From: Crambe crambe
Taxonomy: Eukaryota; Porifera; Demospongiae; Poecilosclerida; Crambeidae
Reading direction: 5' to 3'
Length of the DNA: 64,000 nucleotides
Assembly (NCBI GenBank): GCA_963924555.1
Contig: OZ004581.1
Span: 7,913,338 to 7,977,337 of the forward strand
The notes beneath the pieces are model-generated. The model made no database searches, was not told where the DNA came from, and was given only the letters and a program-made list of their open reading frames with translations. A program made the position numbers and the translations under genes. Shown here piece after piece: positions 1 to 64,000 of the stretch (the stretch's first letter is position 1; the number at the start of each line of letters is the position of its first letter).

Positions 1-241
1 CAGTCCTTTGACTCCTTTTATAAAAGAATAAAAGATGGGACTAGATGCATTGCTATCATGCAGCTGTGCTATAGAACTGCATTGGAGGCATTTTTAAGCA
101 TACAGCTGCATGCAAGTACATAGCTAATAAAGTTTTTATAATTATTATTTTTTCAGGGAGGGGGTGGGAGGGGGCATCCCCTATATCCATAGAAAGTTGC
201 TACCATGTTCTCTTACTAGTTATAGTTCACTGGTTTTTCAG

Positions 242-430
242 GTGGACAGGATGTGGGCCATGCGGGATTATGAAGGAGCACGTCGCAACTCAAAATACGC
301 TCGCAACTGGAACATAGCTGGTATTATTGGAGGTTTCGTGACTCTTGCATTACTGGCCATCTTTTTGGGGCTCTTCCTTGGACTGTACTACTTCCCTCAA
401 GCTTACAAAAGATATTCCATTCATTTTTAA
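242..430 (+). CDS. G1: last exon of a CD225/dispanin (IFITM-like) gene, 5' part outside window
   Basis: Only exon 4 is in the window. A pyrimidine-rich tract ending TTTTTCAG at 241 is followed by an open 62-codon exon starting V-D-R-M-W and ending with TAA at 428-430. It carries the CD225 signature (D-Y-E-G-A-R-R-N-S-K-Y-A) and then a long hydrophobic segment, I-A-G-I-I-G to L-G-L-Y-Y, read as transmembrane helix 2. A poly(A) signal AATAAA lies at 497-502. The exon and the preceding intron (1-241) are close relatives of the G6 (26.55-27.2 kb) and G8 (33.06-33.48 kb) equivalents, so exons 1-3 should lie left of the window on the plus strand. Family assignment is firm; the full product cannot be given. 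Confidence 0.8.
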   Translation: MDRMWAMRDYEGARRNSKYARNWNIAGIIGGFVTLALLAIFLGLFLGLYYFPQAYKRYSIHF

Positions 431-683
431 CACTATAGATAGCTACGTATGTAGTCCACCCATGCATGCAGTGCTGAGAATCAACTTTTTTTCCTCAATA
501 AAAATAAGTAGCTAAGAACTTCATGCAATTTTGTGTCTGATTATAATTATATAGATTAATAATTGGTTTCAGCGAGTGAGCTGGCGTCATGACTCATATA
601 ATCTGTATATGTAGCTAGATGCATGACAAAAACAGCTGTCTATTTATATTCGGAGATTCCACATGCAACATCTATTTCATCAG

Positions 684-850
684 GTCATCAATAGTCGGCT
701 GACGTACATCAGACAGGCAGGGTTCTATATCTGCTTCCACTCCTTAAAAGGTCACATCCTAACATAGCTGGTATTATTGGAGGTTTCATGAGTCTTGCAT
801 TTCTGGCCATCTTTCGGGGGCTTTTCTTTGGACTGTACTACTTCCCTCGA
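684..850 (+). pseudogene. Vestigial CD225 exon 3 and exon 4 fragments
   Basis: At 681-683 a CAG acceptor is followed by GTCATCAATAGTC, matching the start of the G5/G10 exon 3 (GTCACAAATAGTC) before similarity is lost. At 761-850 there is the second half of an exon 4 (codons for N-I-A-G-I-I-G-G-F to G-L-Y-Y-F-P) without its V-D-R-M-W beginning. The exon 3 relic recurs at 27451 and 41835, and the exon 4 relic at about 21507. Not expected to be coding. Confidence 0.6.
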
Positions 851-1384
851 TCACCTTTACACTTGAAGTTAATTATACCTATAATCAATATTAACACTCT
901 ACATAGTCCATGCACCCTGAGAATCAACTTGTTTTCCTCAGTACAACATTCTTACATTAGCTAGCTAACTAATTATTACATAGCTAGCTATATATAAGAT
1001 GGATATAAGAATTTCATGAAGTTTCATGCGTGACTGTGTTATACACGTAGCTATATAATTTAAATTGTATACATTATGGATAGCTAATAGCTTAATTGAG
1101 AAACGTAGCTACATGTACGTATTAATGGACAGAGAATGGCTTGACTTGCATGCATGGCATTATTATGTATATTTAGCTAGCTGTGCATGCATGACTATCT
1201 AGCTATCGCCAGTTTAGATGCATGCATGGCTAGCTATATGTAATGCCATGCATGCATGAGTTTATGCATGTGACAATCTCTGGTGCATAAGTAACAGTTA
1301 ACAAAAATTGAAACTCAGCCATCTCTGTCCTAAGTGTAATCATTATAGTTATAGTAATAATTAACCATTATTATATGGACTCAC

Positions 1385-1454
1385 ATAATTCATTGCCGTC
1401 ATTTCTTATCAGTGCCTTCTTCTCGGTCATATCATGCATATTAAGGTTTGCCAT
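1385..1454 (-). CDS. Orphan CD225 start exon (exon 1)
   Basis: A 70 bp minus-strand exon opens at 1454 with M-A-N-L-N-M-H-D and runs 23 codons plus one base to a GTGAGT donor at 1384-1379, the standard exon 1 structure of this cluster. No matching exon 2-4 is visible between it and the left edge. It sits at the outer end of the left palindrome arm; its mirror partner is the truncated exon 1 near 55582 (G14). It is either a relic left by the duplication breakpoint or the start of a transcript whose other exons are not recognisable. Confidence 0.5.
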
Positions 1455-2252: not shown

Positions 2253-5200
2253 TCAGTTGTAGTAAGTGTACCTCCTATTATTATAACTGGCAGTAACTAT
2301 AATGCTGTAGAGAATGAGACCAGTGTAGGTGAGTGCTAGCAACACTCCAACTATTATGCCAAATATGTTGAAAATTTTGGTATAAATCGAATATCGACGA
2401 ACTCCTTCGTAATTTCGATTCTCCCATTTGTCATCAACCTGCATGTATGTATATAATGTATGCATTGATTTTTGTGGCTATGTACATGGTATAATCTATA
2501 GCTATAGAGTGACTATATTATTATACTGGCAGGAAAAATAATATCGCACATAAAGACAAAAAATAGGGCTGTATAGGGCTGGATACATTTTTTTCAACAT
2601 TATGGTGTATCAGAAAACCTCCTGACAGAACTTGCTACAGATGCCTGACTTGTGGAACAGGGACATGTGTTAATTATTATCTCAATTCACACTTAGATCA
2701 TGCATAGTGCTATTGTTCTAATCTTAGCTTCTATTTTTAGATTGACTGATTTCTATAAAAATAGGCTGAGTTGATTTTTGTATCAGTTCCATTTTAATGA
2801 ATAAGTTTGGCATCTCCTGAAATCTCTTACATGGTGCATGTATAGCTTACACAGTGACATCATTATGTAGCTATGTATGTAGCTAATTCACATTCTATAG
2901 AGCTAGGGTATATTTCACTTATGGGACACTATAGCTAGCTACCTGCTTTATATATTACATTGTAACTAAATATAGGAAAGTGAATTTTCATGCTCTCTCC
3001 TATACCCATGTTACCAGAGTATACAATCTAAACAGAGAGAGAAGCTTTGCTACAGTTGATTTACGGTCCGTTTGAATTTCCGTATGCCATACTGTACACG
3101 GGAAGCTTGTTTATAAAATGTATGCACGCACAAAGCATACGCTTCCCGTGTATGGCATACGGAATATTTGAATGGAGCGTAAATCCACTGTACCCCCTTC
3201 TTTATTGAGAGTTTTGTCCTCTTTGGGGTATCCTATATGCTGTATTAGCAGCTACACACACTTCTCCTGTATGACCTTATTGCTGTAGAGCAGTGCTGCA
3301 ATTCCAAGGGGCCAACAGCAGCAGATGCAGGTGAAGATGGACAAGTAATGCCAGGTACGTGGCTTTATAGGGTCCAAATGAAAATCATTAGATGATGACA
3401 TTTGTTCATTATTTGCAACCTATAGAGAAAAAAGGATTATTGTAGTGAGGGCCAATTATCTATGACCCCATCACCTTGATAGATATACGTACGTAATAGC
3501 TACACTTATAGGCAGTTATAATGTGATTATATTATTACCCTGACATAAGCTGGTAAATTCTGGAGGTGCGGCATCTCAGCAGATGGTGGGCCTGCATGCA
3601 CTGCAAATTTAAAACTGTTAGCTAAGTGTGTGAGTGTATGTGTGTTAGTCTCGCGTGGTCAAACCCTGAAGGAAGGGGAAGGGGGAAGGTCTGGCCACAT
3701 GAGACTATGTGTGTGCATGTGTCATGGACCTCCATCCCAGACACAGAGGCCCCTGACAACTGCAGCCTTCGATTAGCACATATGGAGGCGTGAACCCGAC
3801 TCTCATGACACTTGACGATATATGTACAATTCTAGCTAGATGATGACTGAGACAGTTAGTCAGTTTTTTTGGCTTAGCTTTTCTTTTTGGGCTGTATAAT
3901 CAGAAATAATAATAATTTACTTAGCTACTTGATCAGTAAACCCCAACATTCATCTGCAATCTTCTCCTGGGAGGGTCTGTCATCACCATATCTCCTTCCC
4001 TTGTCAAATCTCTCCCCGTGGTGACGTTGGAATGGCTCTCCCATACCTCTCCTGAAGTCTCTGCTGTCAGCTCTCTTCAGCCATCGTGGATCGTCAAGGT
4101 CCATGTTCCTATCTTGGAAGTAGTATTCTGCAAGACTTGCTGCTTCTTTAGATGATTTGGGTTCTTTCTCTCTGATGCTTGTAGCTGCTGACTTGGGTAG
4201 CATTTGCAACAGCTTCTCAGTGACTACTTGATCCAGTGACTCCTTCACAGTGTCCTTCTCTGCAAACCGATGTATTAGTCGTGTTAAGTTCCTGGCTACC
4301 TGGGAAAAATTTTGTCCTTTTTTCCTCTCCAATGTCCAAAATGACTCCCCAGCTCTCCTAGAGCTGCTTGAACTGGCATTGATTAGCTCCTCCTTTAACT
4401 TCTTGTACTCCAGCTTGTCTTCTGGTTCCATGTGTGATGTAATTGATCTGCACTCGTCATTCATTAATGGCGTTAAGTGCCCGCACCATTCGCACCTCGG
4501 TATTTCCTTCCGTCCCATGTTTTCTTTGAACATCTCCAAGTATTCCGATATCTCAGTTTCCTTCGTCATTGCTGCTATCTTGGGGATCGCTTCCTTCTGT
4601 TTGTCTCTTTTCCTCTCTGCTGCTGTCTCTGATCGGGTCCTTTCATCTTTTTCCATGGACAGTCTCAAAAGTTCTGCGGTCTGTTCCATCTGGGTTTTCA
4701 ATAACTGGGCAAAATTGGTTTGCAATAATTCAAACTTCCTCTCCTGAAATTCTTGCTCTTGTGCTCGTTCGCTCTTCTCCTCTTCTCTCCTAATTCTTTC
4801 TTGTTTTTCACGTTGACGATCTCTCTCTTCTCTTTCTTGTTGCCTGATTTTCTCTTGCTCTTGTTTTTCTCGATCTCTGTCCTCCTGCTCTTGCTGTCGT
4901 GTCCGTTCCTGGTGTTTCAAAAACTCCAGTAAGTCAGATGATTCGTGCGTTACTTCATAGCCTCCTTTCTTCTTTGATGCCATCCCGTTCGCTTCCTGTA
5001 CCGTTCACTCGAATTAATGTTTCCTCTCGTGCTATTTTATTCCCTCTGATCAGTCGCTCCCCTGGGTCCTTGAACAAAATCCTGGTCCTATCTCCATCTT
5101 CTCCTCCAAGACTTGGCTAACGATAGTCCAGAGCCACTGCTGCCACCAGAATGTTGGGGTTTACTGATCAAGTAGCTAAGTAAATTATTATTATTTCTGA

Positions 5201-6230
5201 TTATACAGCCCAAAAAGAAAAGCTAAGCCAAAAAAACTGACTAACTGTCTCAGTCATCATCTAGCTAGAATTGTACATATATCGTCAAGTGTCATGAGAG
5301 TCGGGTTCACGCCTCCATATGTGCTAATCGAAGGCTGCAGTTGTCAGGGGCCTCTGTGTCTGGGATGGAGGTCCATGACAGCATGTGTACTTTATATCAA
5401 AGGAATAATTATTGTTACCAGTTTGTCTTACAGTTTACAGAAAGCGTTCCTTAGATATATGCATGCATAATACATAACGTAGCATTACACTTTCACTTTG
5501 GAGTATGGAAGAATAATTGCTACTTGACAATGCATAACTCCATGGCTAGCTAATATCACACACAGTGCATACATACATGGCCTATAACTATACAGTGTCA
5601 ATCACTTGTGAAATAGCTAGGTACTGTTTTATTAACAGTTAAGGTAAAGCGGGGCTATTTCGAACGGCGAGTAATTCCGTATTGTTCAAATATTTCTGGA
5701 AACTACTCAGGCTTCTGAGCTCAATGTTGGAGGATATAATCTACCATAATAGTAGAATATACCTTTCAAAATAGAGCTCATAAGCTCGAGGAGTTTTGAA
5801 AATATTTGACCCTACGGAATAGCCCCACCGTTCGAAATAGCCCCGCTTTACCTTACTGTTGAGCACTAACTGGATAATACTAGTATAGATAACTAGCTAG
5901 CTCTATAGCTGTAGCTACTCCTTCAATATAAAAGTTTCTCCACCTTGCCATGCACCATAGCTACATAGCTACATATGTGATAGCTAATCCCAGGTGGCTG
6001 TATAGTTAGAATAGCTACTAGCTATCTTGAGATTGTCACAAAATATTAGCTGTAGCTAGCTTGGTACTCCATAGACATAATTATAATAGATATAGCTATT
6101 TACTAGCTACTATACAGTAAATGTAGTCTAGTTATTAGCTACAATACGTAGACTCACATAATAATTCATTGCTATCACTTTTCATCAGTGCCTCGTCCTC
6201 AGAAGCATCATGCATATTAAGGTTTGCCAT
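2253..6230 (-). CDS. G2: CD225/dispanin-family membrane protein, 4 exons, ~151 aa
   Basis: Exons (minus): 6158-6230, 3539-3591, 3276-3419, 2253-2438. The spliced frame is open: 24 codons plus 1 base, 53 bp, 48 codons, 61 codons plus stop. Exon 1 begins M-A-N-L-N-M-H-D. Exon 2 is the short type, C-P-P-S-A-E-M-P-H-L-Q-N. Exon 3 carries I-K-P-R-T-W-H-Y-L-S-I-F-T and the membrane-buried C-I-C-C-C-W-P-L-G-I-A-A-L-L-Y-S-N-K. Exon 4 has V-D-D-K-W-E-N-R-N-Y-E-G-V-R-R-Y-S-I-Y and transmembrane helix 2. In the family this core forms two hydrophobic segments around a cytosolic loop. The first base of the signature pair differs from paralogues (E-G-V instead of E-G-A). Intron 1 contains an LTR-type element (3720-5380) and a MITE (5642-5853), both absent from the mirror gene G13. 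Tyr-rich C-terminus. Function is known only by family. Confidence 0.82.
3058..3185. mobile_element. Foldback MITE-like element (GATTTACG ends)
   Basis: The ends are inverted copies: GATTTACGGTCCGTTTGAAT at the left and ATTTGAATGGAGCGTAAATC at the right, with inner arms around CCGTATGCCATAC and ACACGGGAAGC. It lies in the intron between exons 3 and 4 of G2. The same element sits at 53456-53570 in G13, so it predates the inverted duplication. Confidence 0.7.
3720..5380 (-). mobile_element. LTR-type retroelement with two inverted 229-bp LTRs
   Basis: Both outer ends read TGTCATGGACC inward and are flanked by the 5-bp direct repeat GCATG (3715-3719 and 5381-5385). The 229-bp terminal segments 3720-3948 and 5152-5380 are near-identical inverted copies, each TG...CA when read inward. 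On the minus strand the right LTR ends CCCCAACA and is followed by TTCTGGTGGCAGCAGTGG, a primer-binding-site-like stretch, then the Gag-like ORF. TG/CA termini, 5-bp target duplication and a PBS-like sequence fit an LTR retrotransposon, but the LTRs should be direct repeats. There is no protease, reverse transcriptase or integrase. The paralogous intron (near 52825, and 17.76 kb in G4) has no such element. Confidence 0.8.
3925..4983 (-). CDS. Gag-like protein (352 aa) of the inverted-LTR element
   Basis: A single open frame starts M-A-S-K-K-K-G-G at 4983, about 170 bp inside the right LTR. Residues ~20-120 are a highly charged Q/E/R/K coiled coil. A C-E-W-C pair lies near residue 165. Residues ~225-300 resemble the alpha-helical Gag capsid region related to SCAN domains (N-L-T-R-L-I-H-R-F, E-K-L-L-Q-M-L-P, A-A-S-L-A-E-Y-Y). 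The C-terminus is basic (R/G/D-rich), and no CCHC zinc knuckle is seen. The last ~9 residues are encoded in the inverted left LTR, so the natural C-terminus, and any pol, has been lost. Capsid-like function is inferred from family resemblance. Confidence 0.65.
   Translation of the reverse strand: MASKKKGGYEVTHESSDLLEFLKHQERTRQQEQEDRDREKQEQEKIRQQEREERDRQREKQERIRREEEKSERAQEQEFQERKFELLQTNFAQLLKTQMEQTAELLRLSMEKDERTRSETAAERKRDKQKEAIPKIAAMTKETEISEYLEMFKENMGRKEIPRCEWCGHLTPLMNDECRSITSHMEPEDKLEYKKLKEELINASSSSSRRAGESFWTLERKKGQNFSQVARNLTRLIHRFAEKDTVKESLDQVVTEKLLQMLPKSAATSIREKEPKSSKEAASLAEYYFQDRNMDLDDPRWLKRADSRDFRRGMGEPFQRHHGERFDKGRRYGDDRPSQEKIADECWGLLIK
5642..5853. mobile_element. 212-bp TIR element (AGGTAAAGCGGGGC ends) with empty site in the paralogue
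   Basis: Terminal inverted repeats are AGGTAAAGCGGGGCTATTTC and its complement, flanked by TA on both sides (5640-5641 and 5854-5855). The mirror position in G13 (about 52585) reads straight through as CAACAGTAACTG, the expected empty target with one TA. It inserted after the inverted duplication, into intron 1 of G2. TA duplication and structure suggest a mariner-type MITE. Confidence 0.82.
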
Positions 6231-6272
6231 TACTAGCTTATTAATGTTACTGCTATTCAAGTTCAGGCTATA

Positions 6273-6343
6273 TATTTATAGCTAGCGGATTTGGGCAGTC
6301 TTCCGATAATTATAAATTAGGCAAAGATCGTCAGCGCATGCGC
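6273..6343 (-). promoter_or_regulatory. G2 promoter: NRF-1-type palindrome and TATA-like box
   Basis: Reading minus, TGCGCATGCGCT (core 6334-6343) fits the NRF-1 consensus YGCGCANGCGCR. About 55 bp downstream is TATAAATA (6273-6280), 43 bp before the ATG at 6230. The same pair precedes the start exons at 34850 and 52243. A TATA-driven start would leave a very short 5' UTR. Protein binding is inferred. Confidence 0.55.
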
Positions 6344-6774
6344 AGACTGATTTAACTTATATAATAAGAATGTCTGAGAAAGAAAAGGTGAGCACTTAGC
6401 ATTTGGTTAAGTTTCAGCCAGTGCAGTTTATTGCTAGCAGCTAGCTACAGGCTACAGCTACCAGAATGCTTAGCTAGCTACTGAAGCTTTAGACATAGAG
6501 GTAGCTGGGCCATCAGCACCAAATTCTTATACTTCATACTGTTATTATAATTGTTATGAAATGGGCGTGGCTAAGCAAAGGTGGGCGTGGTCAGATGTAT
6601 GGTGGAAGACTACCAATTTCAAGGGTGCCCCTGACATGCAAGTGCAATAGAGCATCTGTGTATACTCTCTTGTATGTATGTATTCAGCAGTCATTCCCAA
6701 AGTTCATGTTTGGTGGTGTGTGTCACGTATACACACACACCGATGTATTAAATCGAATGGAAATCATTTTATAG

Positions 6775-6995
6775 CTGCCGCTGAGTGGTCACATAAGCCA
6801 GGATGCCTGTGCGCTAAGCAGGCAGTGCTGGAAACCTTAGCTTGCAGGAGGAGGACTTGACTATCTCTTCTCAGCAAGTGCATGGTGTGTGGGCACCGAA
6901 GTCCCACTGGCTGGAGACCACAACTGATTTTTGGTTCAGTCCAGGAAACTCCTCCTCTGAGGTCATTACGTAGAAGCCAACTTTAAATTCCTATA
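6775..6995 (-). repeat. Upstream conserved block, copy 1 (5 copies in window)
   Basis: A ~200 bp segment containing GAGGAGGAGTTTCCTGGA, a run ending CTTGCTGAGAAG, TCCTCCTGCGAG and CAGCACTGCCTGCTTAG. Copies: here, 18640-18835 (-), 45165-45385 (+), 51460-51680 (+) and 61833-62045 (+). Each lies on the upstream side of an exon 1 (G2, G4, G11, G13, G16). Reading frames within it are not conserved between copies, so it is not annotated as coding. Confidence 0.6.
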
Positions 6996-7109
6996 GCCAA
7001 TAGCTAACATATAGTTAGCTGCTAGGGTGCATGCTCCATATTGTAGCTATAATGTAATGTACTTACATAATAATTCATTTACTGTCCATCATGCAGTGCG
7101 TTGTAGCTT

Positions 7110-7165
7110 CACACGATATCATATGATAGAGCTGTAGCTATCACATGATAGAGCTGTATAGCTAT
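7110..7165. repeat. Short copy of the CTATCATGTGATAG satellite
   Basis: Two to three units built on the palindrome CTATCA(C/T)(A/G)TGATAG followed by AGCTGTAGCTA. The mirror region 50899-51115 holds about ten units, so the array expanded in the right arm or contracted here. Confidence 0.6.
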
Positions 7166-9244
7166 AATGCAGCTCAGGTACTCCATGCAATAAATATGTA
7201 CATACATATAATAATAATAGTAATATTTTTATTTTACATTAATTAGCTAGCTACGTACATGAACCTGTAGTACATGTGTGTATGATAACAATGAAATAAT
7301 TATGTGAGTCTATGAGTCTATACTCATGATATAGCTACGTACTTCACTGAGGAAAAGAAGTTGATTCTCAGTAACTGCATGGAGGGACTATGTGGCTAGT
7401 GTTAAGTTATAAATGACATGGAATAGAGGGACGAATACAATTCAAAGAAAAGCCCCAAAGAGTTTGCCACAGTTACCAGACACACGAAACTTCCAACAAT
7501 ACCAGCTATGTTCAAGTTGCGAGTATATTTTGAGCTGCGATGTGCTGCTTCATAATCTTGCATGGCCCACATCCTGTCCACCTGAAAAATCAGTGAATCT
7601 CTCTCAATGCATATCATTATAGTATAATTATTCTCACTGTTATTAGAGAGCACAGCAGCAGCTGACTCTCTATGCACGTATATATATTATAGGGATGACC
7701 CATCTAAAACCACCATAGTGTATACATTCATATGTGCCAAACTTCACATGCTTTAATTGTACATGATAGCTACAGTAATCCTATACGTACTTTCAATTGT
7801 AACATTATAGAATGTCCCTCTGGGCAGTGACAGCTATGCATGTAGCTACATCTGGAAGTAATCAGGTGTGAAGTTTGGAAGCAATCAGGTTTGAAGTTTG
7901 GAAAAAAAATAATCAGTGAAATTGTTGTTTTTCACAAGTTGTATAATAAAAGCAAACACTTTGTTAACTATTAGCTAACACCTGTAGCTACTGCATGACC
8001 TTATCACTGTAGAACAGTGCTAGGAACCCAAAGGGGCAGCAGAACCAGCAGAAGAGGAAAGTGAAGACACAGGTGAAAATAGACAAGTAAAGCCAAGTAC
8101 GTGGCTTAATAGGATCCATATGATAATCATTGGGTGATGACGTTTGTTGATTGATCTATAGAGAGAGAAAGAAACCTATTTTGTGAGGGAATGGTTAGCT
8201 ATAGCTATATACGTATAGCTCTCTGGACCTCTCTCTATCTATGTCCCTGTCACCCTATAACACTCGGCCTACATCATAATGCAATTACCCTGACATAAGC
8301 ACTTGTGTGAGGTGAATTATGGAGGTGCGCATCTCAGTAGAAGATGGTGGACCTGCATTGAATGGAAGAGTTCATAATAATAATAATAATAATAATAATC
8401 AGAGAGTGCGGTAGCACTCTCTAAGTAGGGATGGCAGGTCAAAGTCCATAGGACAGTATAAACTAAAAACTCTTCTTTCTCTTCTACCCTTACTCTACAG
8501 GTTCTCAGAAGGCTACAGTGAATTATTATATCTACAAAGAAGAGAGGAGAATGTTCAAAAGCCAAAAATTCATTCGCCAACATAAGAAAAAAACGAGTTC
8601 TAAAATTGACTTTTCGTTCTTTTTCTTTATAATAATAATAATAATAATAAGGATAATAATAATAATAAGATCGACGTACCGACTTACTGGCTATAGTCAT
8701 CAAAATTCTGCTTTGGCCTGTCACGAAAAATTTGGACCGGGGAAAAAAGTGGACCGGGGGTCCAGTTTTTTCCATGAAAAAAGTGGACCGCCTTTACCAA
8801 AAGTTATCCGGGCATATCAGCTTATACATAACTGAGCAGCGCTACCCACCAGACTGTAGTCAAGACAAAAAGAGAGCTATTGGAGAGAAAGCAGCTATGT
8901 TCAATGTAAGAAAGGGAGTTCTTTTCATCAAGAAGAAAAAGAAGAGCGTGGTAAGACCTGATTTTTCATAGGTGCTTATTATGCTTGTAGATAGCTAGCT
9001 AGCTTAGCTAGCTACGCATGAAGTTGAGTCTAGATGCAATCATGGTGATTCTACTTAATTATGGCCTTACTGGTTACCAGCATAGATACTATATATCTAC
9101 TGCACAGTATAATTATGGTATCTGTACCAGATTTTTGGCCTCTGTAAAAGAAGCTCATGAAATTTGCCTGTAGCTGTAGCTAGCTATGTACCAAGTTACC
9201 CAGCTATTCTCTTCAAATAAATAATCAAATCAAATATCATTCTG

Positions 9245-9935
9245 ATGACCTTGGGTTTTCCCTATCCCTGACCAAAAGGCTGTATGGTTTAATAGTGGAC
9301 ATACTGATGCTGAGATCATGTGTGTGGTGTTCCAGAAAGTCTACTATCAGAGAAGGGACCCAATCAGCTATCCTACCTGATGACTGATGTATGCAGTCTT
9401 CTTGGAATTACGAAATTGAATACTACAGCATACCATCTTCAGTGTGATGGCCTCACCGAGAGGTTTAATCGTACTCTCGTACTCTAAAGACGCTGATATG
9501 CAAGCATGTTGATGTCTATGGGAAGCAGTGGGACAAGTATTTACATGGGATGCCTATGAGGCAACAGGCGAGAAGCCATCTTACCTTCTTTATGGTAGCT
9601 ATCCTATTGAAGCTGCATTTCTTCCTGCTAATGAGGTAGAAGGGGCTGACCTGACAGGCTACCAATACGACAGGAACTCACTGAGATACTCAGTCAATCC
9701 AGAAAACCCAGAAGCATTGCAAAAAGTACTATAATAAGGTGAACAAATGTTCTCCTATGCAGTTCAAGATTGGCGGTCTAGTGCTATTTCGATTTCCTCA
9801 GGAAGAGTCCGGGAAGTTTCAGAAGTTATCTCGTCTGTGGCATGGACCCTATATATATTGATTTTTTGAGGTGACTCCAACCGGCATTGCAGGAAAACGT
9901 GTCTACACTTCAAAAGATGTTCATGTACACTTAAA
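9245..9935 (+). pseudogene. Decayed Ty3/gypsy integrase (pol 3' part)
   Basis: In frame at 9341 the text reads L-L-S-E-K-G-P-N..., then L-L-G-I-T-K-L-N-T-T-A-Y-H and G-L-T-E-R-F-N-R-T-L, the rve core. The glutamate of E-R-F-N lies 35 residues after the position that should be the second catalytic Asp, but that residue is Glu here. A stop follows, then a frameshift into 9528-9734 (E-K-P-S-Y-L-L-Y-G-S), and then a C-terminal stretch (F-P-Q-E-E-S-G-K, W-H-G-P-Y) broken by another stop. No protease or reverse transcriptase remains. Inactive. Confidence 0.75.
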
Positions 9936-9972
9936 TCTGAGTTACCCTAGTTATCTGACCATCCCTCTACTT

Positions 9973-10968
9973 AGTCTCGCGTGGCCAGACCCTTTACCAA
10001 CTGCAGCACGGATGTATTACATCATCCGCACGCAGAAGGAAGGGTCTGGTGTCAGCGTGTACTGGCTTTCGTTGCATTCCCCAGGAATGTGAACTTCAAT
10101 ACTTAGTGTGTATTGCTTATGGGAGTGTGGTTTTATTATCACATTAATAATATTCACGCGCACCGATAACGTTAACGTAGGCGATTCCGGCCGGGCTATT
10201 TTTTCAGCAGGCGTAGAATGAAGCGATGGCTTCTTTGCAAGACAGTGCATCTGCAGATGTAAAATGTATAGTAGCTAGGCTTGAAGAAAGAACAAGAGGA
10301 GAGTGTGTTTCAGCTGGTCAGTGGCAAGGATGTATTTGTGTGCCTGCCAACAGGCTGTACTTGACCTGCTCGATTGGTACAGAAGAAGTTGGTCGTATCA
10401 CCACTTAGTGCCTTGATGAAAGACCAGGTAGCTTCTGATTGGTGATTTGCTTGGACTACATTGAGGAACTATACTATGGGTGCTGGTGAAGCACCATCGG
10501 TTGCTACAATGCCTGGTTCCACTTGTGCTGACTGAAACTTAGGAAGAATGGCCAGTGCACTCTGCAAATTGTTGGTCAGTGTTTGCAGGCGGTCATTACA
10601 AGATCTGCAAACGTATCCAGTGTGCAACTTGGTGCAGTCCACTTCAGGAAACCTGGACATCAGAGCAGTAAGGCATTCCAGTGCACTTGATATGCCAGGA
10701 CTTGACAAGGGTCTCCTTCTCTTCTCTTCTTCTCATTGGCACTGGCCACAGACTTTCCACAGCAAAAACAATTTTCCATAGCCAGATGCAATAATAATAG
10801 CGCGCAGTTTACTCTTATGGTTTTGTGGTGTGAACGTGGGTGTAAATTGCATTCCACTGCAACGAGAGCCAGTACACGCTGACACCAGACCCTTCCTTCT
10901 GCGTGCGGATGATGTAATACATCCGTGCTGCAGTTGGTAAAGGGTCTGGCCACGCGAGACTACCCTCT
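9973..10968. mobile_element. DNA transposon with ~110-bp TIRs (AGTCTCGCGTGGCCAGACCC)
   Basis: The left end (about 9973-10085) and right end (about 10848-10968) are inverted copies including AGTCTCGCGTGGCCAGACCC, GCAGCACGGATGTATTACAT and CGTGTACTGGCT. It interrupts or abuts the gypsy relic. Related termini occur at 3650, 17640, 38319/39243 and 52850. The interior contains a minus-strand Cys-rich fragment (M-E-N-C-F-C-C-G-K-S ... Y-V-C-R-S-C-N-D) split over two frames, possibly a zinc-binding relic. No transposase is recognised. Confidence 0.65.
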
Positions 10969-11395
10969 ACTATGGAAGAAAGTAAGCTCGGGGCAAGCTC
11001 TAACTGGAGGGGGTGTGTGACAGTAACATTAATTATTAGTTTTATCATTACTAACTGTTATGTAATCATCATTGTGATTTCACTTATGACGTAATCTTGT
11101 ATCACATGTTCACTCCTTGATTCGTGACCCTTGAGTAAAGTCTAATATCACTTGAGATGCTGCCTGGTGACATTACATGAATAACATATCTGATATAAAG
11201 TAGTCTTGTCCTACATGTAAAAATAACCAGATAGTCAACAAGTGAATTTTATATAGCATGCAGTTATATTCCTACATAGGTATCCTTTCAAGGAAAAAAC
11301 AACTTAACAAACTTCAATAGACTTGATTAACTTATAATTATTGGGAGGAGGGTGGGTTAATCTTCAAAGCCAGGTCCACTGGACCTGCCTAAATT

Positions 11396-13380
11396 TCAGC
11401 AGCAAAAATGGACCTGTCTGGATTTCGGCAGGAAACTGGACCGGGTCCACTTTTTTCCCCTGCAAAAAATGGACCTGCCTGGATTTCGGCAGGAAACTGG
11501 ACCGGGTCCACTTTTTTCCCCTGCAAAAAATGGACCTGCCTGGATTTCGGCAGGAAACTGGACCGGGTGCACTTTTTTCCCCTGCCAAAAATGGACCTGC
11601 CTGGATTTCGGCAGGAAACTGGACCGGGTCCACTTTTTTCCCCTGCCAAAATGGACCTGCCTGGATTTCGGCAGGAAACTGGACCGGGTCCACTTTTTTC
11701 CCCTGCCAAAAATGGACCTGCCTGGATTTCGGCAGGAAACTGGACCGGGTCCACTTTTTTCCCCTGCAAAAAATGGACCTGCCTGGATTTCGGCAGGAAA
11801 CTGGACCGGGTCCACTTTTTTCCCCTGCCAAAAATGGGCCTGCCTGGATTTCAACAGCGAAACTGGACCGGGTCCACTTTTTTCCCCTGCCAAAAATGGG
11901 CCTGCCTGGATTTCAACAGCGAAACTGGACCGGGTCCACTTTTTTCCCCTGCCAAAAATGGACCTGCCTGGATTTCGGCAGGAAACTGGACCGGGTCCAC
12001 TTTTTTCCCCTGCAAAAAATGGACCTGCCTGGATTTCGGCAGGAAACTGGACCGGGTCCACTTTTTTCCCCTGCCAAAAATGGGCCTGCCTGGATTTCAA
12101 CAGCGAAACTGGACCGGGTCCACTTTTTTCCCCTGCCAAAAATGGGCCTGCCTGGATTTCAACAGCGAAACTGGACCGGGTCCACTTTTTTCCCCTGCCA
12201 AAAATGGACCTGCCTGGATTTCGGCAGGAAACTGGACCGGGTCCACTTTTTTTCCCTGCCAAAAATGGACCTGCCTGGATTTCGGCAGGAAACTGGACCG
12301 GGTCCACTTTTTTTCCCTGCCAAAAATGGACCTGCCTGGATTTCGGCAGGAAACTGGACCGGGTCCACTTTTTTTCCCTGCCAAAAATGGACCTGCCTGG
12401 ATTTCGGCAGGAAACTGGACCGGGTCCACTTTTTTCCCCTGCCAAAATTGGACCGGCCTGGATTTCGGCAGGAAACTGGACCGGGTCCACTTTTTTCCCC
12501 TGCCAAAAATGGACCTGCCTGGATTTCGGCAGGAAACTGGACCGGGTCCACTTTTTTTCCCTGCCAAAATTGGACCGGCCTGGATTTCGGCAGGAAACTG
12601 GACCGGGTCCACTTTTTTCCCCTGCCAAAAATGGACCTGCCTGGATTTCGGCAGGAAACTGGACCGGGTCCACTTTTTTCCCCTGCCAAAAATGGACCTG
12701 CCTGGATTTCGGCAGGAAACTGGACCGGGTCCACTTTTTTCCCCTGCCAAAAATGGACCTGCCTGGATTTCGGCAGGAAACTGGACCGGGTCCACTTTTT
12801 TCCCCTGCCAAAAATGGGCCTGCCTGGATTTCAACAGCGAAACTGGACCGGGTCCACTTTTTTCCCCTGCCAAAAATGGGCCTGCCTGGATTTCGGCAGG
12901 AAACTGGACCGGGTCCACTTTTTTCCCCTGCCAAAATTGGACCGGCCTGGATTTCGGCAGGAAACTGGACCGGGTCCACTTTTTTCCCCTGCCAAAATGG
13001 ACCTGCCTGGATTTCGGCAGGAAACTGGACCGGGTCCACTTTTTTCCCCTGCCAAAAATGGACCTGCCTGGATTTTGACAGCGAAACTGGACCGGGTCCA
13101 CTTTTTTCCCCTGCCAAAAATGGACCTGCCTGGATTTTGACAGCGAAACTGGACCGGGTCCACTTTTTTCCCCTGCCAAAAATGGACCTGCCTTGATTTT
13201 GACAGCGAAACTGGACCGGGTCCATTTTTTTCCCCTGCCAAAAATGGACCTGCTTAGAATTTGACGGCGAAACTGGACCGGGTCCACTTTTTTCCCCTGC
13301 TAAAAACGGACCTGTTTAGATTTTGATGGCGAAACTGGACCAGGTCCACTTTTTTCCCCTGCCAAAACTGGACCGGGTCC
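11396..13380. repeat. Minisatellite, ~32 units of 60-61 bp
   Basis: The unit reads ATGGACCTGCCTGGATTTC, then GGCAGGAAACTGGACCGGG, then TCCACTTTTTTCCCCTGCC plus A's. Variants replace GGCAGG by AACAGC or GACAGC, or the first CTG by CGG. The unit carries an 11-bp near-palindrome GGACCGGGTCC and inverted CCTGCC/GGCAGG. Because the unit contains no stop in most frames and its length is not a multiple of three, long apparent reading frames of up to ~600 codons appear on both strands. They are artefacts of the repeat. Units degrade toward both ends (13260-13530), and half-units reappear at 8735-8800. Confidence 0.9.
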
Positions 13381-17506: not shown

Positions 17507-17601
<95 letters not shown>

Positions 17602-22096: not shown

Positions 22097-22189
22097 CTCT
22101 CAGCTATACAGACTATTTGGAATCAATTCAAGTGACTTATATACTCTCCAATTACTCTTCCTTCCAAGCTCCAAGACATGGAGTATTGA

Positions 22190-45624: not shown

Positions 45625-47764
<2,140 letters not shown>

Positions 47765-48665: not shown

Positions 48666-50637
<1,972 letters not shown>

Positions 50638-51680: not shown

Positions 51681-52102
51681 AATGATTTGCATTCGATTTG
51701 CATTGATGTGTGTGTATACGTGACACACACCACCAAACACAAACTTTGGGAATGACTGCTGAATACATTAACAGTTATACTTTCAGATACAAGAGAGTAT
51801 ATAGCACAGATGCTCTATTGCACTTGCATGTCAGGGGTACCCTTGAAATTGGTAGTCTTTCACCATACATCAGGGAAAATTTTTATCTGATCACGCCCAC
51901 CTTTGCTTAGCCACGCCCATTTCACAACAATTATAATAACAGTATATGAAGTATAAGAATTTGGTGCTGATGGCCAGCTACCTCTATGTCTAAAGCTTCT
52001 GTAGCTGTAGCCTGTAGCTAGTTGCTAGCAATAAACTGCACTGGCTGAAACCTAACCAAATGCTAAGTGCTCACCTTTCTTGTCGACAAGCCTCATCAGT
52101 CT

Positions 52103-52191
52103 GCGCATGCGCTGACGATCTTTGCCTAATTTATAATTATTATATTAATTGACGTCGGAAGAAGACTGCCCAAATCCGTTAGCTATAAATA
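52103..52191 (+). promoter_or_regulatory. G13 promoter: NRF-1-type palindrome and TATA-like box
   Basis: TGCGCATGCGCTGACG spans the palindrome 52103-52112, and TATAAATA is at 52184-52191, 52 bp before the ATG at 52243. Same order as in G2 and before 34850. Confidence 0.55.
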
Positions 52192-52242
52192 TATAGCCTG
52201 AACTTGAATAGCAGTAACATTAATTTTTATAACAAGCTAGTA

Positions 52243-52899
52243 ATGGCAAACCTTAATATGCATGATGTTTCTGAGGAGGACCAGGCATTGGTGAAAAATG
52301 ATGGCAATGAATTATTATGTGAGTCTATTGTAGATATAAACTATAAACTGTATGGAAGCTAGCTATATCTATGTCTATGGAGTACCAAGCTAGCTACAGC
52401 TAATATTTTATGACAATCTCAGGATATGTAGCTATTCTAACTAGCCTATACAGCCACCTGAGAATTAGCTATCACATATGTAGCTATGGTGCATGGCAAG
52501 GTGGAGAAACTTTTATATTGAAGGAGTAGCTACAGCTATAGAGCTAGCTAGTTATCTATAGCTACTAGTATTATCCAGTTAGTGTTCAACAGTAACTGTT
52601 AATAAAACGGTAGCTATTTCACAAGTGATTGGGCCATGCATGCACTGTGTGTGATATTAGCTAGCTATGGAGTAATGTATCGTCAAGTAGCAATTTAAAC
52701 CAATTATTCTTCCATATGTACTCCAAAGTGAAAGTATGTAGCTATATGCATGCATATCTAAGGAATACTTTCTGTAAACTGTAAGACAAACTGGTAACAA
52801 TATATTATTCCTTTGATATAAAGTACACACACACACAGTCTCATGTGGCCAGACCTTCCCCCACCCCTCCCCTTCCTTCAAGGTTTGACCACGCGAGAC

Positions 52900-52988
<89 letters not shown>

Positions 52989-54524
52989 CTTAACATTTTA
53001 AAATTTGTAGTGCATGCAGGCCCACCATCTGCTGAGATGCCGCACCTCCAGAATTTACCAGCCTATGTCAGGGTAATAATAATTATAACTGCCTATAAGT
53101 GTAGCTATTATGTATGTATATCTATCAAGGTGATGGGGTCATAGATAATTGGCCCTCACTACAATGTAGCTTTTTCTCTATACTATATATTACAGGTTGC
53201 AAATAATGAACGAATGTCATCACCTAATGATTTTCATATGGACCCTATAAAGCCACGTACTTGGCATTACTTGTCCATCTTCACTTGCATCTGCTGCTGT
53301 TGGCCCCTTGGAATTGCAGCACTGCTCTACAGCAATAAGGTCATACAGGAGAAGTGTGTGTAGCTGCTAATACAGCATGTAGGATACCCCAAAGAGGACA
53401 AAACTCTCAATAAAGAAGGGTAAACATTTGGGGGTAGCTACAGTGGATTTACGCTCCATTCAAATATTCCATATGCTGTACACGGGAAGCGTATCCTTTG
53501 TGCGTGCATACATTTCATATTAAAAACAAGGCCATGTACGGCATACAGAAATTCGAACGGAGCGTAAATCAACCGTAGCAAATTAAGCTTCTTTCTCTGT
53601 TTAGATCGTATAGCTACTCTGGTAGCATGGGTATAAGAGAGAGCATGAAAATTCACTTTCCTATAATTATTTAATAATATTATGTAAAGCAGGTATCTAG
53701 CTAGCTATATCCCACGCTGTGTTTACTGCACACCATTTGTCCCACTACACACACTGTTTTTGTTTTTAGTGTGTGTATTGGGACAATTTAGTGTGCAGTA
53801 TACACTTTCATTTTTACAGTGTGCACTGTACGTCCCATAAGTGAAATACACCATCTTCCCTAGCTCTATAGAATGTGAGTTAGCTACATACATAGCTACA
53901 TAATATTATGATGTCATTGTGTCATGCACCATAATGTTGAGAAAAAGAAATGTAGCCCTACAGCCCTAGCCCCACTTTTTGTCCATTTATGTGCAATATC
54001 AATTTTTTCCTGCCAGCATAAGGCCAGTGTTAATGACATTCATTTTTCTGGTCTGGATTTTTCCTCACAGCCATGCGGGCGGGCGGTAGTTATTATCCAT
54101 TATACCATTATTATCAATGTCAAAATGTCCATTTTCTAGCCATAAAATCATCACAAGTACAGTCTGCAGTATAATTAATGCAATAATGGCTTCTCAAGCG
54201 GTGCCAATTTTCCAATGCGGGCGGTTGACCAGAAACATGAATATCATTAACACTGGCCTAATAGTTACTCTATATAGTACCATGTACATACTGAGCCACT
54301 AAAATTAATGCATGCATACATATACATACATGCAGGTTGATGACAAATGGGAGAATCGAAATTACGAAGGAGCTCGTCGATATTCCATTTATGCCAAAAT
54401 TTTCAACATATTTGGCATAATAGTCGGAGTGTTGCTAGCACTCACTTACACTGGTCTCATCATATACAGCATTATATATGCTGATATTATATATAGGTAC
54501 AGTTACTACAAACATTACAACTGA
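52243..54524 (+). CDS. G13: CD225/dispanin-family protein, short-exon-2 type, ~153 aa
   Basis: Exons: 52243-52318, 53020-53072, 53196-53339, 54336-54524, in phase (25 + 1; 2 + 17; 48; 62 + stop). Exon 1: M-A-N-L-N-M-H-D-V-S-E-E-D-Q-A-L. Exon 2: C-P-P-S-A-E-M-P-H-L-Q-N-L-P. Exon 3: V-A-N-N-E-R-M-S-S-P-N-D-F-H, then C-I-C-C-C-W-P-L-G-I-A-A-L-L-Y-S-N-K. Exon 4: V-D-D-K-W-E-N-R-N-Y-E-G-A-R-R-Y-S-I-Y-A and helix 2 with a Tyr-rich tail (Y-R-Y-S-Y-Y-K-H-Y-N). Intron 1 contains (CA)n at 52902-52985. The mirror gene G2 additionally has the LTR-type element and the MITE, which are absent here. Short promoter as described separately. Confidence 0.85.
52830..52985. repeat. GTCTCATGTGGCCAGACC foldback plus (CA)n
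   Basis: GTCTCATGTGGCCAGACCTT ... AGGTTTGACCACGCGAGACT forms a hairpin, then ~80 bp of CA. Equivalent hairpins flank the (TG)n of G4 and the exon 2 side of G2 (3648-3715). Termini match the 9973-10968 transposon. Confidence 0.75.
53715..53821. mobile_element. MITE of the CACTGTAAAAACGAAAGTG family, copy 4
   Basis: Right end TTTCATTTTTACAGTG intact; left end truncated. Interrupts the region matching 2930 in G2, where the sequence is CTATAGCTAGC, so it was gained in the right arm or lost in the left. Confidence 0.65.
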
Positions 54525-55581: not shown

Positions 55582-56304
55582 CAGAAATGATGACAATGAA
55601 TTATGTGAGTCCATAGTTATAAGCTTACTGCTATAACTATGATATGATTACACTTACGTACGTAGGACGGAGATGGCTGAGTTTCAATTTTTACTTATGC
55701 ACCAGAGATCGTCACATGCATAGACTCATGCATGCATGGCATTATCATGTACATTTAGCTAGTCATGCATGCATGACTATGTATCTAAACTGACGAGAGC
55801 TAAATAGCTATATATAGTCATGCATGCACGGCTATAGCTAAATGTACCTAACAATGCCATGCATGCGCATGAGTTAGCAATGCAAGCCATTCTCTGTCCA
55901 TTAGCTAAATTACGTACATAATACGTAGCTACGTTTTTGTGATGATACATACATGATGGCTATTACTACGTACGTATGCAGGCCCACCATCTTCTACTAC
56001 GACCTCCATAATCCACCTCACACAATTGCTGATGTAGCTATTAAGCTATTAGGGTGACAGGGACATAGATAGAGAGAGGTCCAGATAGCTATACGTATAG
56101 CTAATCATTCCCTCACAAAAATCAGCTTCTTTTTCTCTCTATATAATTTATATAGGTCACAAATAATCAACAAACATCATCACCCAATGATTATCATACG
56201 GAAGCCACATACTTGGCTTTGCTTATCTGTTTTCACCTGTGTCTTCACCTTCCTCTTCTGCTGGTTGTGCTGCCCTTTTGGACTGTTCTACAGCAATAAT
56301 TAAG
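55582..56304 (+). pseudogene. G14: decayed extra copy of a G12-type CD225 gene
   Basis: A truncated exon 1 (55582-55604, only ...R-N-D-D-N-E-L), a damaged exon 2 (55982-56036, C-P-P-S-S-T-T-T-S) and exon 3 (56156-56304). Exon 3 lacks the bases for D-P-I-K and part of F-G-F-L-A and has TTAA inserted near its donor. No exon 4 before the satellite at 57013. It lies outside the right arm and shares its downstream satellite arrangement with G12, so it is a tandem duplicate. Confidence 0.7.
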
Positions 56305-57012
56305 GTCATGCAGTACAGGTAGTTGACAGTGTGTTTGCTTTTATTACTACAACTTCTGAAAAACAGTTATTAGTACGTAGCTATATCAGAGTTATGATCA
56401 TGTGTACCCATTAGCTAAAAACCCTAGTTTCACTTTTACAATTTTTTCCCCAAACTTCAAACCTGATTACACTTCCAAACTTCACACCTGGTTAGCTAGC
56501 TACTTCCAAACTTACCTGATAACTTCCAAACATCATGCAATTTTCTCTCATAACTATACATTAACAAGTCGTCGGTTAGTGACAGATTCTATAAACTAGC
56601 TAGGGCTTCCACACGTGCATGTGGAATGAAGGGGTTGGTAGTAGTGCAGGGGCCACTCCCCCCACATGGCTCAGTGTGGAGACCTATTTCCCAGAGGGAC
56701 AAAGAGGTACACTCTATATAAGTAGAAAAAATATTATAATTGAAAGTACATAATAATTATGTAGGATTACTGTCTGTATGGTGTATAAACATGCATGCAT
56801 GTGAAGTGAAGTTTGGCTGCATATGAATGTGTGGTTTTAGATGCCCACCACTTGGGTCATCCCAACATAGAGGGTCATACAGGTGCTACTCTGCCCTTAA
56901 TAACAATGCGAATAATTATAATAGGTATATCAGCTAATCATGGAATTACGTAATAATTACATTATATATATATACATATTTATTGTGCGAATGGAGCACC
57001 TGAGCTGTATAG

Positions 57013-60520: not shown

Positions 60521-60808
60521 CAAGCAAATATCATCATGACATCAAGTGGTATATTGATCATGCCATAGCAACCTGGGACACGCATACATTATAATGTACA
60601 TGTGCATCAATCTAATTACATATTATTTGCCATACAGTATGTAATTATGAGTAAGCTATAGTATAGTTTCCCCTTGCATGTGCATGACATATAGCTAATA
60701 GATAGCTTATTTTAACTGAAGAGTAGTTAATACTATAATACGTACATTCATGGTTATAGCTTTTGATACAGTTTCCTGGTAGATAACATTCACCCAGCTA
60801 TAGTAACT

Positions 60809-60884
60809 ATGGCAAACCCTATATACAAGTCTCTGAGAAGACAGAACTGATGGGAAATGACAGCAATGAGCAGGAAGAATTATG
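60809..60884 (+). pseudogene. Broken start exon related to G16 exon 1
   Basis: ATGGCAAACCCTATATACAA then GTCTCTGAGAAGACAGAACT-GATGGG: two extra bases relative to G16 exon 1 shift the frame into TGA after 13 codons. The 3' part (G-N-D-S-N-E-Q-E-E) and the donor (GTAAGA) are kept. No exon 2 follows before G16. Confidence 0.6.
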
Positions 60885-62943
60885 TAAGAAATTTATTAAT
60901 AAGTGGACCCATGGGCCCCATGCATAGTATATAGAAATCAGATACCATTAAGTTCTTCATACGTGTAGCTCTTTGTTCTGCATATCCAGCCGACAATCCC
61001 TACAATCCACAGTGCAATTAGCTAGCATAGCTACATAGCTATATCTCTGTACGTATCACATGATAGTCCAGGTAGAAATTAAGCCCATCGCCATGCATTT
61101 TAGCTATCATTGTTAATTCTTTAGATTCAATGTGTCCTAAACTTTTGTCATTGCTCATGTGGCTGTAACTTTATCTCCAACCATTAGCTCTAATTGCTAT
61201 GTCTTAATTTCCCTCACATATTTAACAACAATTCAGCTATGTGTACGTAGCTACATACATTGAAACCAATAGCTAGCTACCGTACTGGTTCATTTCGATA
61301 TGCACTGCTGGTGCTGTTGCATACGTGCAGCCCCTTTGAGTGATGCAGCTGCTCCTCTTACTTTAGCTATACGTAGCTATAGTTACCATGATAAACTACA
61401 TCAATGTTTATTGCTTCTCTTGATCCATAGATGCACTTTCAATAATAACTCTATTTCAATACCATGCAACCATGCACCATCCACATGCAGCTATAATAGT
61501 TTATAGCTATAACACATTATTATGATAGCAACAGTTACAGGTCTAGTTTGCGCTATAACTATAATAACAAGTGAGCACAAAAAATTTCTTCAAAATAAAT
61601 AGGTTAAGTAGGGATAGCCTAAAATCTAGCTGGCTATATAATGTACTGCAGCCTAGCTCATATGAAAACAATCCCTACTTTTACAACTGCCGTAGCTACC
61701 TATAGGTAGTGGATTGAAATGGAGTTATGCATAATTCTATACAAGTAAGGGAAAGTGAAATGAAAAAAAAAAATGTAGAGATGACCATTGCTTGAAAAAG
61801 TAAGGGTAGGAGTGAAGGATGGAAATGGGCATAGGAATTTAAAAGTCCCATGGCTTCTACGTAATGACCTCAGAGGAGGAGTTTCCTGGACTGAACCAAA
61901 AATCAGTTGTGGTCTCCAGCCAGTGGGACTTTGGTGCCCACACCATGCACTTGCTGAGAAGAGATAGTCAAGTCCTCCTCCTGCGAGTTCCTAAGGTTTC
62001 CAGCACTGCCTGCTTAGCGCAGGCTTATGTGACCACTCAGCAACAGCTATAAAATGATTTGCATTCGATTTGCATTGGTGTGTGTGTATACGTGACACAC
62101 ACCACCAAACACAAACTTTGGGAATGACTGCTGAATACATTAACAGTTATAGATACAAGAAAGTATATATTATACACAGATGCTCTATTGCACTTGCATG
62201 TCAGGGGCACCCTTGAAATTGGTAGTCTTCCACCATACATCAGGGGAAAAATATATATGTAATTTCACCCATGTAAGAGTAACACTGAGTAACAGAGAAA
62301 TCTTACACAGAAAGGAGAGGTATTTAATGCAACAATACTATATTAGTTATACTATAGTTAGGTGCACTAAGCTAGTGGCTATATAGCTACATTTAACATG
62401 ACATGCACTTTCATTGTTATATAGCTATCAGGGTCAATCAGAGTTGAATCCATGCAGCTAGGGATGCATGGGACGATTGAGGGGGTTGCAATCCCCATCC
62501 CCTCCTTGTCCCATGCCCAGGCAGCTACATAGCTGTGCATGTTACAGTTAATTGTAATGCTCCAGTTAGATATCCTTAAACTTCCAAGCATCATGACATT
62601 GAACTTTGTCATGGAATTCCAATCATCTTATCATAGCAACCTGGAATATACATACACATGCATATGTGCATCAACCTAATTCCATTATAGCATTATCAGA
62701 TCATAATAAACTTCCCCTTGCATGGGTTCCACATGTGCATGATACATTCTACATACATATAACTAGCTATTATAGCTATAGCTCTTTTACTAAAATCTTC
62801 TATGGCTACAGTTTCCTGATGATATAGGTATAGTTAGTATTCACCCTGCTAGCTATAATCTCGCCACAGGCTCACATATTATAAATATTACAAGTGGTAT
62901 AGCAATAGTGAATCCTATAGCTATAGCTAGCTCAAGAGTAGCC

Positions 62944-63346
62944 ATGGCAAAACTTATACGAGTCTCCGAGAAGACAGAACTGATGGGAAATGACAGCAAT
63001 GAGCAGGAAGAATCATGTAAGAAATTTAAGTATACGTAGATCTATGTTATTTACAGAAATCAGATACCTAGCTAAATGCATTCACTTCTTTATAGCTACT
63101 TTTTCAACATGGCTCAAGCTAATTTTGGTCTGGAGATAAAGTTATAGCCAATGAGGATTGTTGTGCATGGAAGTTGAAAATTGATTGACACAGCTAATAG
63201 ATATACGTAATAGCTAGCTATAGCCAAATTTATTGCATCCTTATTACTATTCCAACTCGGCAATACATTTAGGCTCTGCACCATCAGTTGTTGAGATGCA
63301 CCAGTCTCCACCCCTGCACACACACACTGCTGATTCTTCTGTCAGG
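62944..63346 (+). CDS. G16: CD225-cluster gene, exons 1-2 only, continues beyond window
   Basis: Exon 1, 62944-63016 (24 codons + 1): M-A-K-L-I-R-V-S-E-K-T-E-L-M-G-N-D. Exon 2, 63273-63346 (2 + 24 codons): C-S-A-P-S-V-V-E-M-H-Q-S-P-P, ending ...S-S-V-R with a GTGAGG donor. Lengths, phases and the C-x-x-P-S-x-x-E-M pattern match the short exon 2 of G2/G11/G13. No exon 3 is visible by 64000, so the diagnostic CD225 core is not seen and identity rests on exon structure. AT-rich DNA fills 63347-64000. Confidence 0.6.
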
Positions 63347-64000
63347 GTGAGGGCTATAAAAGTAGCTGACATAATGTCAGGTGCCCCCTGATTACGTATT
63401 AAAGTGTGTATAGCTATATGGCATAGAATATAGCTGTTATTATTATCATGACATGGCATAGAATTTTTTATTAACACAAAAATTAATTATACTAGCTCCA
63501 TAGACATCTTATCATCTATAGCTATATGTCTTTTGAGTACATTGAATTGCTAAATTCTTGTGATTATTATATCTAGCTAGCTTTCATATTGATTTTTAGA
63601 GAAAACTGCACACAATAGTCTATGTAGCAATTGTACATACGTAGCTCATAAAGTACTGTCATTTAAAAATCAGGGCTAGGGAATTTGAAAGTGTTTTCAC
63701 AGGCTTTGTTCTTATGAGCTACATGCTATGGCTTGCTTAATTGCATTCTGTGTAAATTCTGTAATATATAAAGCTTCAATTTGAGGTGAAAGTTTGTGGA
63801 ATAGCCATACGTAGCTATCAAAAATAATATATAGCTAAGCTCCAATTTATGCACCCACATGCAACAACTGGCAGCTGACTGTAAGGATTCAAGGCTATAT
63901 ACGTAGCTAAGCTACCGTAGCCATAGTACCTACAATTCTTCCAGTAGAATATTCATGAATGCATGATTATAGCAAAACCTCCAAATAATAGCTAGACTTT

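Follow-up and report, generated by a model that had tools for sequence, protein, structure and literature searches.

CD225 proteins bind SNAREs and regulate membrane fusion (PMC11730294). Among the members of this family, the vertebrate dispanins A and B are two-exon genes, and the dispanins of animals and choanoflagellates share a splice site in the loop between the two helices (PMC3282796). The largest CD225/dispanin count in a survey of 36 species was 17, in the mouse (PMC3282796). Outside vertebrates, the domain is enriched in Hydra (21 and 19 genes, compared with 2-9 in five other cnidarians; PMC7642931), lophotrochozoans are reported to have expanded dispanin repertoires (PMC5620054), and dispanin C was counted in two of four sponges (PMC7653359). 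Here we analyzed a stretch of 64,000 nucleotides from the sponge Crambe crambe (OZ004581.1, contig C1, bases 7913338-7977337), called the window below, which forms the middle part of a large array of CD225 genes. Coordinates without a contig name are window positions.

The dense CD225/dispanin array in this sponge DNA is real, and larger than first noted. The genome (143,139,886 bases in 119 contigs) was searched with the Pfam profile PF04505, which provides a lower bound for the CD225 count. At least 61 exon-level matches were detected, with 52 of them located in C1:7845442-7996844 and 21 within the window. The array spans 151.6 kb (C1:7845313-7996892) and comprises 27 cleanly paired loci with a mean spacing of 5.8 kb. 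Thirteen of these pairs are the window loci L1 to L6 and L8 to L14, and one is a truncated locus at C1:7906900. Two further pairs, L7 and C1:7900597, display no usable donor, and single exons are also present. Five paired loci were found outside the array (two on contig C17, two on C1 and one on C9), leading to 32 paired loci genome-wide; contigs C13 and C17 carry additional CD225 exons without clean pairing.

Using exon-specific profiles, 14 loci carrying both halves of the domain were detected in the window, plus partial copies; the exon 3 of one of the 14, L1, falls just outside. The exon 3 half includes the first hydrophobic segment, the cysteine cluster and a YSxK-like end, and the exon 4 half consists of a VDxxW...EGA stretch and the second helix. 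The two are separated by a GT..AG intron in every cleanly paired locus, both in the array (27) and outside it (5). When the exons of the nine loci open through four exons and of L6 were joined, the CD225 match ran unbroken over the exon 3/4 junction, with expectation values (E) of 1.2e-15 to 1.3e-26 and scores of 57.8-92.9 bits for a cut-off of 27.1. The spliced products of L1 and L4 match CD225 as well, and all 18 spliced products scanned (the 10 above and 8 more) exceeded this cut-off. A preliminary description of this DNA had proposed about 16 CD225 loci, which is a fair estimate: the 14 two-half loci are accompanied by fragments near 755, 29204-29931, 33849 and 55584-56365. Its proposal that exons 3 and 4 form the CD225 core was confirmed by the PF04505 check, and its assignment to the CD225/dispanin family in a sponge, with a dense array, several subfamilies and a four-exon structure, is supported.

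Gene models were assembled from profile matches, splice sites and phases. Nine of the 14 window loci (L2, L5, L8, L9, L10, L11, L12, L13 and L14) are open through four exons; in all nine, exon 1 is followed by a GTGAGT donor and every intron is of the GT-AG type. The exon 1 splice motif gave 14 matches against 0.28 expected in shuffled sequences, and 12 of these 14 fall within exon 1 profile matches. Phases are 1-0-0 in eight of the open loci and 0-0-0 in L8, because the shift in its exon 1 is compensated in exon 2. The ten open loci with phases 1-0-0 announced earlier are thus nine, eight of them with the phases given. In L1, L4 and L6, exons 2-4 are open without a usable exon 1; neither profile nor pattern searches recovered an exon 1 for L1 or L6.

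The nine intact window genes encode predicted proteins of 147-189 amino acids. Exon 1 provides about 20-25 residues starting with MAN, and exon 2 adds about 50-58 residues except in the L2/L13 type, where it is short. Together they form a variable soluble N-terminus, followed by the first helix with its cysteine cluster (exon 3), then by the loop, the second helix and a variable tail (exon 4). Hydropathy analysis revealed two hydrophobic segments in 30 of the 32 paired loci, both exceptions being truncated, and the intron between the helices is predicted to sit in the loop in all 32. The A-x6-A motif of the loop is present, with A61 invariant and A68 in at least 90% of 15 aligned rows. A conserved Asp before the first helix is a feature listed for eukaryotic dispanins; an Asp just before the Tyr ahead of this helix was seen by eye in about 3 of the 15 rows, the other rows having mostly Asn or Thr. 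A common six-residue insertion is present in the first helix of L3 (7994-8107, minus strand) and L12 (49912-50025, plus strand). In genes of the left part of the array (e.g. C1:7893276-7893446), exon 2 differs from that of the window genes: it is rich in Pro, Gln, Gly and Tyr and contains YPGQPQGAYP-like repeats.

The array grew by tandem and inverted duplication, and contains mosaic genes joined inside introns. Minus-strand L2, L3, L4 and L5 mirror plus-strand L13, L12, L11 and L10, respectively. The left arm (2253-21096) carries L2 (2253-6230; open exons 6158-6230, 3539-3591, 3276-3419 and 2253-2438), L3 (7402-15398), L4 (16220-18627) and L5 (19554-21096; four open exons, with PPPY and YQPL in exon 2). 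In the right arm (42279-54524), L10 (42279-44379), L11 (45625-47764), L12 (48666-50637) and L13 (52243-54524) all have four open exons. Seven mirrored DNA blocks of at least 600 bases are 79-89% identical; they stand in inverted order and carry differing insertions. Similarity is uneven across the inverted duplication, perhaps because of later conversion or of separate duplication events.

Mosaic structure was observed at L9 (36354-38108, plus strand, four open exons), in which exons 1 and 2 are nearest to L14 (57514-60051, plus strand, four open exons; 86.8 and 96.7% identity) and exons 3 and 4 to left-array genes (92.6 and 74.4%). The DNA matches switch in or beside the 56-base intron 2 (37306-37361). 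L12 and L3 show a second pattern: mutual matches aside, their exons 2 and 3 are nearest to the L2/L13 type and their exon 4 to the L1/L6/L8 type, and the DNA matches of L12 switch within intron 3, between 50036 and 50438. The best match of L12 in exon 1 is L14, which does not tell the types apart. In the exon 4 tree, grouping L12/L3 with the L2 type was rejected (approximately unbiased test, p-AU 2.3e-6) and grouping with the L1 type was supported (95/88). In the exon 3 tree, L12/L3 fell in an eight-row clade with the L2 type (95/92), the six-row branch reaching only 73/67, and their placement with the L1 type was not formally rejected (p-AU 0.061). The p-AU test is optimistic, because the groups were picked after the identities had been seen. 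The mosaic reading of L12/L3 relies on the exon 4 tree, the exon identities and the breakpoints. Such intron-bounded mosaics would allow the exchange of exon cassettes within a tandem array to be tested.

Purifying selection acts on the CD225 core, and none was detectable on the tails. Over six close pairs, the ratio of nonsynonymous to synonymous changes per site (pN/pS) in the core was 0.33 (24/949 nonsynonymous against 20/257 synonymous sites, Fisher p 0.0002); restricting the comparison to four pairs that do not overlap, with L3 left out, gave 0.31 (p 0.0009). The values for the tail and for the N-terminal portion of exon 3 were 0.79 and 0.78, neither distinguishable from 1, and pooling exons 3-4 gave 0.57. 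In three of five close pairs, exons were clearly better conserved than introns (L13/L2, 91.7 against 84.5% identity; L11/L4, 95.0 against 84.8%; L6/L8, 93.8 against 81.1%), and the distant pair L14/L9 displayed 52.1% in exons and 45.2% in introns. Only two of the exon/intron comparisons extend beyond exons 2-4 or 3-4.

A profile built from 15 Crambe cores was compared with the PDB and yielded one convincing relative, PRRT1 (E 1.5e-18; 9zks chain M and two further entries). Scored against this profile, a bacterial protein obtained 73.3 bits, PRRT1 70.5, PRRT2 60.7, a Hymenobacter protein 58.7 and IFITM3 53.6. PRRT1 is thus the top score of the three vertebrate references, a ranking that is a lead more than a test. 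In a tree of 34 proteins, 12 of the 31 inner branches were well supported, IFITM3 and PRRT2 formed long branches, and PRRT1 joined two C17 genes weakly (93/43). With this support, the deepest subfamilies of the array may be either old or specific to this lineage. A single query of viral contigs returned no relative.

Residues were numbered as in IFITM3, by aligning an IFITM3 segment with the residue numbers given in PMC11730294. R85 is the centre of the R-SNARE-like motif of IFITM3 (PMC11730294); at this place, none of the 32 paired loci has Arg and 27 have Asp. G95 is required for the antiviral activity of IFITM3, and its Gly is common to other dispanins such as PRRT2 (PMC11730294); 25 of the 32 loci have Gly there. 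Cysteines were found at places 68, 69 and 70 in 16, 25 and 28 of the 32 loci, and at places 71 and 72 in 5 and 0. We take C71/C72 to be the cysteine pair of IFITM3. As judged from sequence, these proteins are CD225/dispanin proteins from which the IFITM-specific features that we tested are mostly absent. IFITM membership was not adopted, in view of the R85 and C71/C72 places and of the tree. The IFITM-type reading of the preliminary description is therefore not supported, the profile also seeming to fit PRRT1 better than IFITM3. This result makes it less likely that the proteins are IFITMs, but says nothing against an IFITM-like action on membranes.

What the array does can be approached through these relatives. 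We propose that it encodes PRRT1-like/bacteria-like membrane proteins that tune vesicle traffic and were duplicated for microbe handling, an account to which, taken as a whole, we give a probability of about 0.5. By analogy with studied CD225 proteins, the products would reside in plasma or endosomal membranes, probably anchored there by palmitoylated cysteines, and may tune vesicle trafficking or fusion; the YQPL and PPPY motifs in exon 2 of some copies would steer endocytic sorting. A role at vesicle membranes is the best inference because of the studied relatives, the constrained core and the sorting-like motifs. The likeliest driver of repeated duplication would be the handling of microbes or symbionts on the endocytic path, in an animal that feeds on microbes. 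This driver is suggested by sponge feeding and by expression in Hydra symbiosis: a PRRT1-like CD225 gene of Hydra is expressed more strongly in symbiotic than in symbiont-free animals, 6.1-fold by array and 6.7-fold by quantitative PCR, the symbionts being algae (PMC6019070). Several observations weigh against this account. Some copies are broken or have no exon 1 that could be found. The central Arg of the R-SNARE-like motif is absent, so SNARE binding of the IFITM3 type cannot be assumed. Sorting motifs are not general, since YQPL is present in only 7 and PPPY in only 4 of 13 modelled loci, and such short motifs arise readily by chance. Finally, two close pairs run against the general pattern: core changes were 9 nonsynonymous against 1 synonymous in L10/L5 and 2 against 0 in L12/L3, and exons and introns are about equally conserved in both (96.5 against 95.7% and 96.5 against 97.6%, respectively).

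Other explanations share part of this evidence. The genes might encode PRRT1/SynDIG-like adaptors for housekeeping or receptor sorting, with no link to microbes, multiplied by unequal crossing-over and kept for dosage. PRRT1 is indeed the clear relative in the PDB and groups, if weakly, with the two C17 genes; moreover the core is constrained. To our knowledge, sponges have no AMPA-receptor synapses, which makes an older trafficking role plausible. However, the high turnover, the many broken copies and the loose tails would be unusual for housekeeping genes kept for dosage, and we find this explanation rather unlikely. An antiviral cluster acting like IFITM, stiffening endosomal membranes to block the fusion of enveloped viruses and expanding under viral pressure, would agree with the CD225 domain, the frequent Gly at the G95 place, the cysteine-rich first helix, the tails free to vary and the clustering known for IFITM genes. 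It fits poorly with the residues at the R85 and C71/C72 places, with a four-exon structure where vertebrate dispanins A and B have two exons, with a profile that seems closer to PRRT1 than to IFITM3 and with the similar domains carried by bacteria. This possibility therefore appears unlikely, and the antiviral reading of the preliminary description is unsupported. The mosaics raise a further idea, which we regard as quite doubtful: N-terminal exons with or without sorting signals and CD225-core exons would form a cassette system, swapped at introns into ever-new pairings of signal and core and driven by microbes that exploit or inhabit endocytic cells.

The last two explanations concern the integrity of the array itself. 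If duplication merely outpaced loss, the array could be largely decaying with few copies in use, as the damage in L3 and L7, the exon 1 that could not be found or used in L1, L4 and L6, the orphan exons and the pooled pN/pS of exons 3-4 would suggest. Nevertheless, all four exons are open in nine of the 14 window loci and the constraint on the core is significant, so that general decay is very unlikely. Extra copies created by the assembly, as haplotypes or misjoins, might be feared because 18 haplotypic duplications were removed during curation (PMC12166358). Duplicated BUSCOs amount to only 0.8% (PMC12166358), and the mirrored blocks are too divergent (79-89% identical), lie in inverted order and contain different insertions. 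Assembly duplication was thus rejected as extremely improbable, and bacterial contamination was ruled out by the presence of spliced genes on a chromosome-scale contig.

The remaining loci of the window are incomplete, apart from L8 (30745-33477, plus strand), with four open exons. L1 is represented by its exon 4 (242-430, plus strand), its exons 2-3 being located just upstream of the window start. L3 has four exons with a frameshift in exon 2 and is probably a pseudogene. Its intron 1 contains a minisatellite (11403-13374; 32 copies of a 61-base unit with 96% matches) that is open in several frames and therefore generates long spurious open reading frames (ORFs). In L4, exons 2-4 occupy 16220-17480, and a copy of exon 1 (18571-18627) stands on the opposite strand. 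At 18371-18659 this copy is inverted relative to L4, and a remnant persists on the strand of the gene; a small local inversion probably disabled L4. L6 (25533-27196, plus strand) may have a further small exon within its intron 2. L7 (28077-28874, plus strand) is a broken copy with damaged exons 1 and 3. It is followed on the same strand by a fragment with exon-2-like and exon-4-like pieces (29204-29931), and further on by a partial copy with exon-1-like and exon-2/3-like pieces, in which no exon 4 was seen (55584-56365). Two exon-1-like sequences, at 1377-1454 (minus strand) and 34850-34933 (plus strand), have no gene after them and may be orphan copies or alternative first exons.

Other coding sequences were also detected in and around the array. 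Ten other long ORFs of the window were scanned and gave one SCAN domain, one weak jacalin match, one CD225 exon and seven without a match. The SCAN domain (E 9.6e-9) belongs to an ORF of 358 amino acids inside intron 1 of L2 (3925-5001, minus strand), probably derived from a retroelement. Single-exon jacalin-lectin-like genes are interspersed among the CD225 genes: in C1:7907826-7908914, a signal-like hydrophobic start precedes two jacalin stretches (E 2.5e-32), another long ORF (C1:7895778-7896851) lies within a 91% identical block, and a degraded jacalin-like copy with a stop is present at 22044-22682. Just past the right end of the array, C1:7999644-8004176 is a single ORF of 1510 amino acids with many ankyrin repeats and a Roc/GTPase stretch.

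Among the open-access literature matches listed, none reports a CD225 array in a sponge, although an IFITM review among them (PMC13194588) contains both "CD225" and "sponge"; term searches of PMC12723187, PMC12909245 and PMC11229196 gave no match for CD225, IFITM, interferon or dispanin. Expansion of CD225 in invertebrates is already known; what is new here is the density of the array, its inverted duplication and its mosaics bounded by introns. The preliminary description had expected the array to bear on the origin of membrane-defence proteins, a claim that is weakened by the published Hydra and lophotrochozoan expansions and by the dispanin C of sponges. In numbers, the sponge repertoire (32 paired loci, 27 of them in one array) exceeds the 17 genes of the mouse and the 21 of Hydra, with the reservation that counting methods differ. 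If expression proves to be tied to microbes, the array would broaden the view that host-microbe interfaces draw on this family independently of interferon. Since the proteins look to be of the PRRT1/bacterial type, the Pfam label "interferon-induced transmembrane protein" can give a wrong impression here.

Compared with known systems, the array shares with the Hydra and lophotrochozoan expansions an enrichment at the level of the lineage outside vertebrates; the passages cited give counts or a remark (PMC7642931, PMC5620054), and the comparison concerns enrichment alone. With IFITM1-3 (dispanin A), the Crambe proteins have in common the CD225 domain, the two helices, the intron in the loop and mostly the Gly at the G95 place, but they differ by the missing Arg at the R85 place, by cysteines located elsewhere and by four exons in the nine open loci instead of two. 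The bacterial CD225 proteins (metagenome-assembled genome SKW228 and Hymenobacter guriensis) have other N-termini and an uninterrupted, intronless loop, but are 44-48% identical in the matched part and share the V(N/D)SxW..GDYEGA motif. PRRT1 (dispanin D) has no Gly at the G95 place and no counterpart to the short exon-1/exon-2 N-termini of the window genes, but its CD225 core aligns with the Crambe core without gaps over 81 residues, including a CCxWPxGI-like first helix, and its proline-rich N-terminus is also encountered in left-array Crambe genes. By the features tested, the predicted Crambe proteins resemble PRRT1 and the bacterial CD225 type more than IFITM3.

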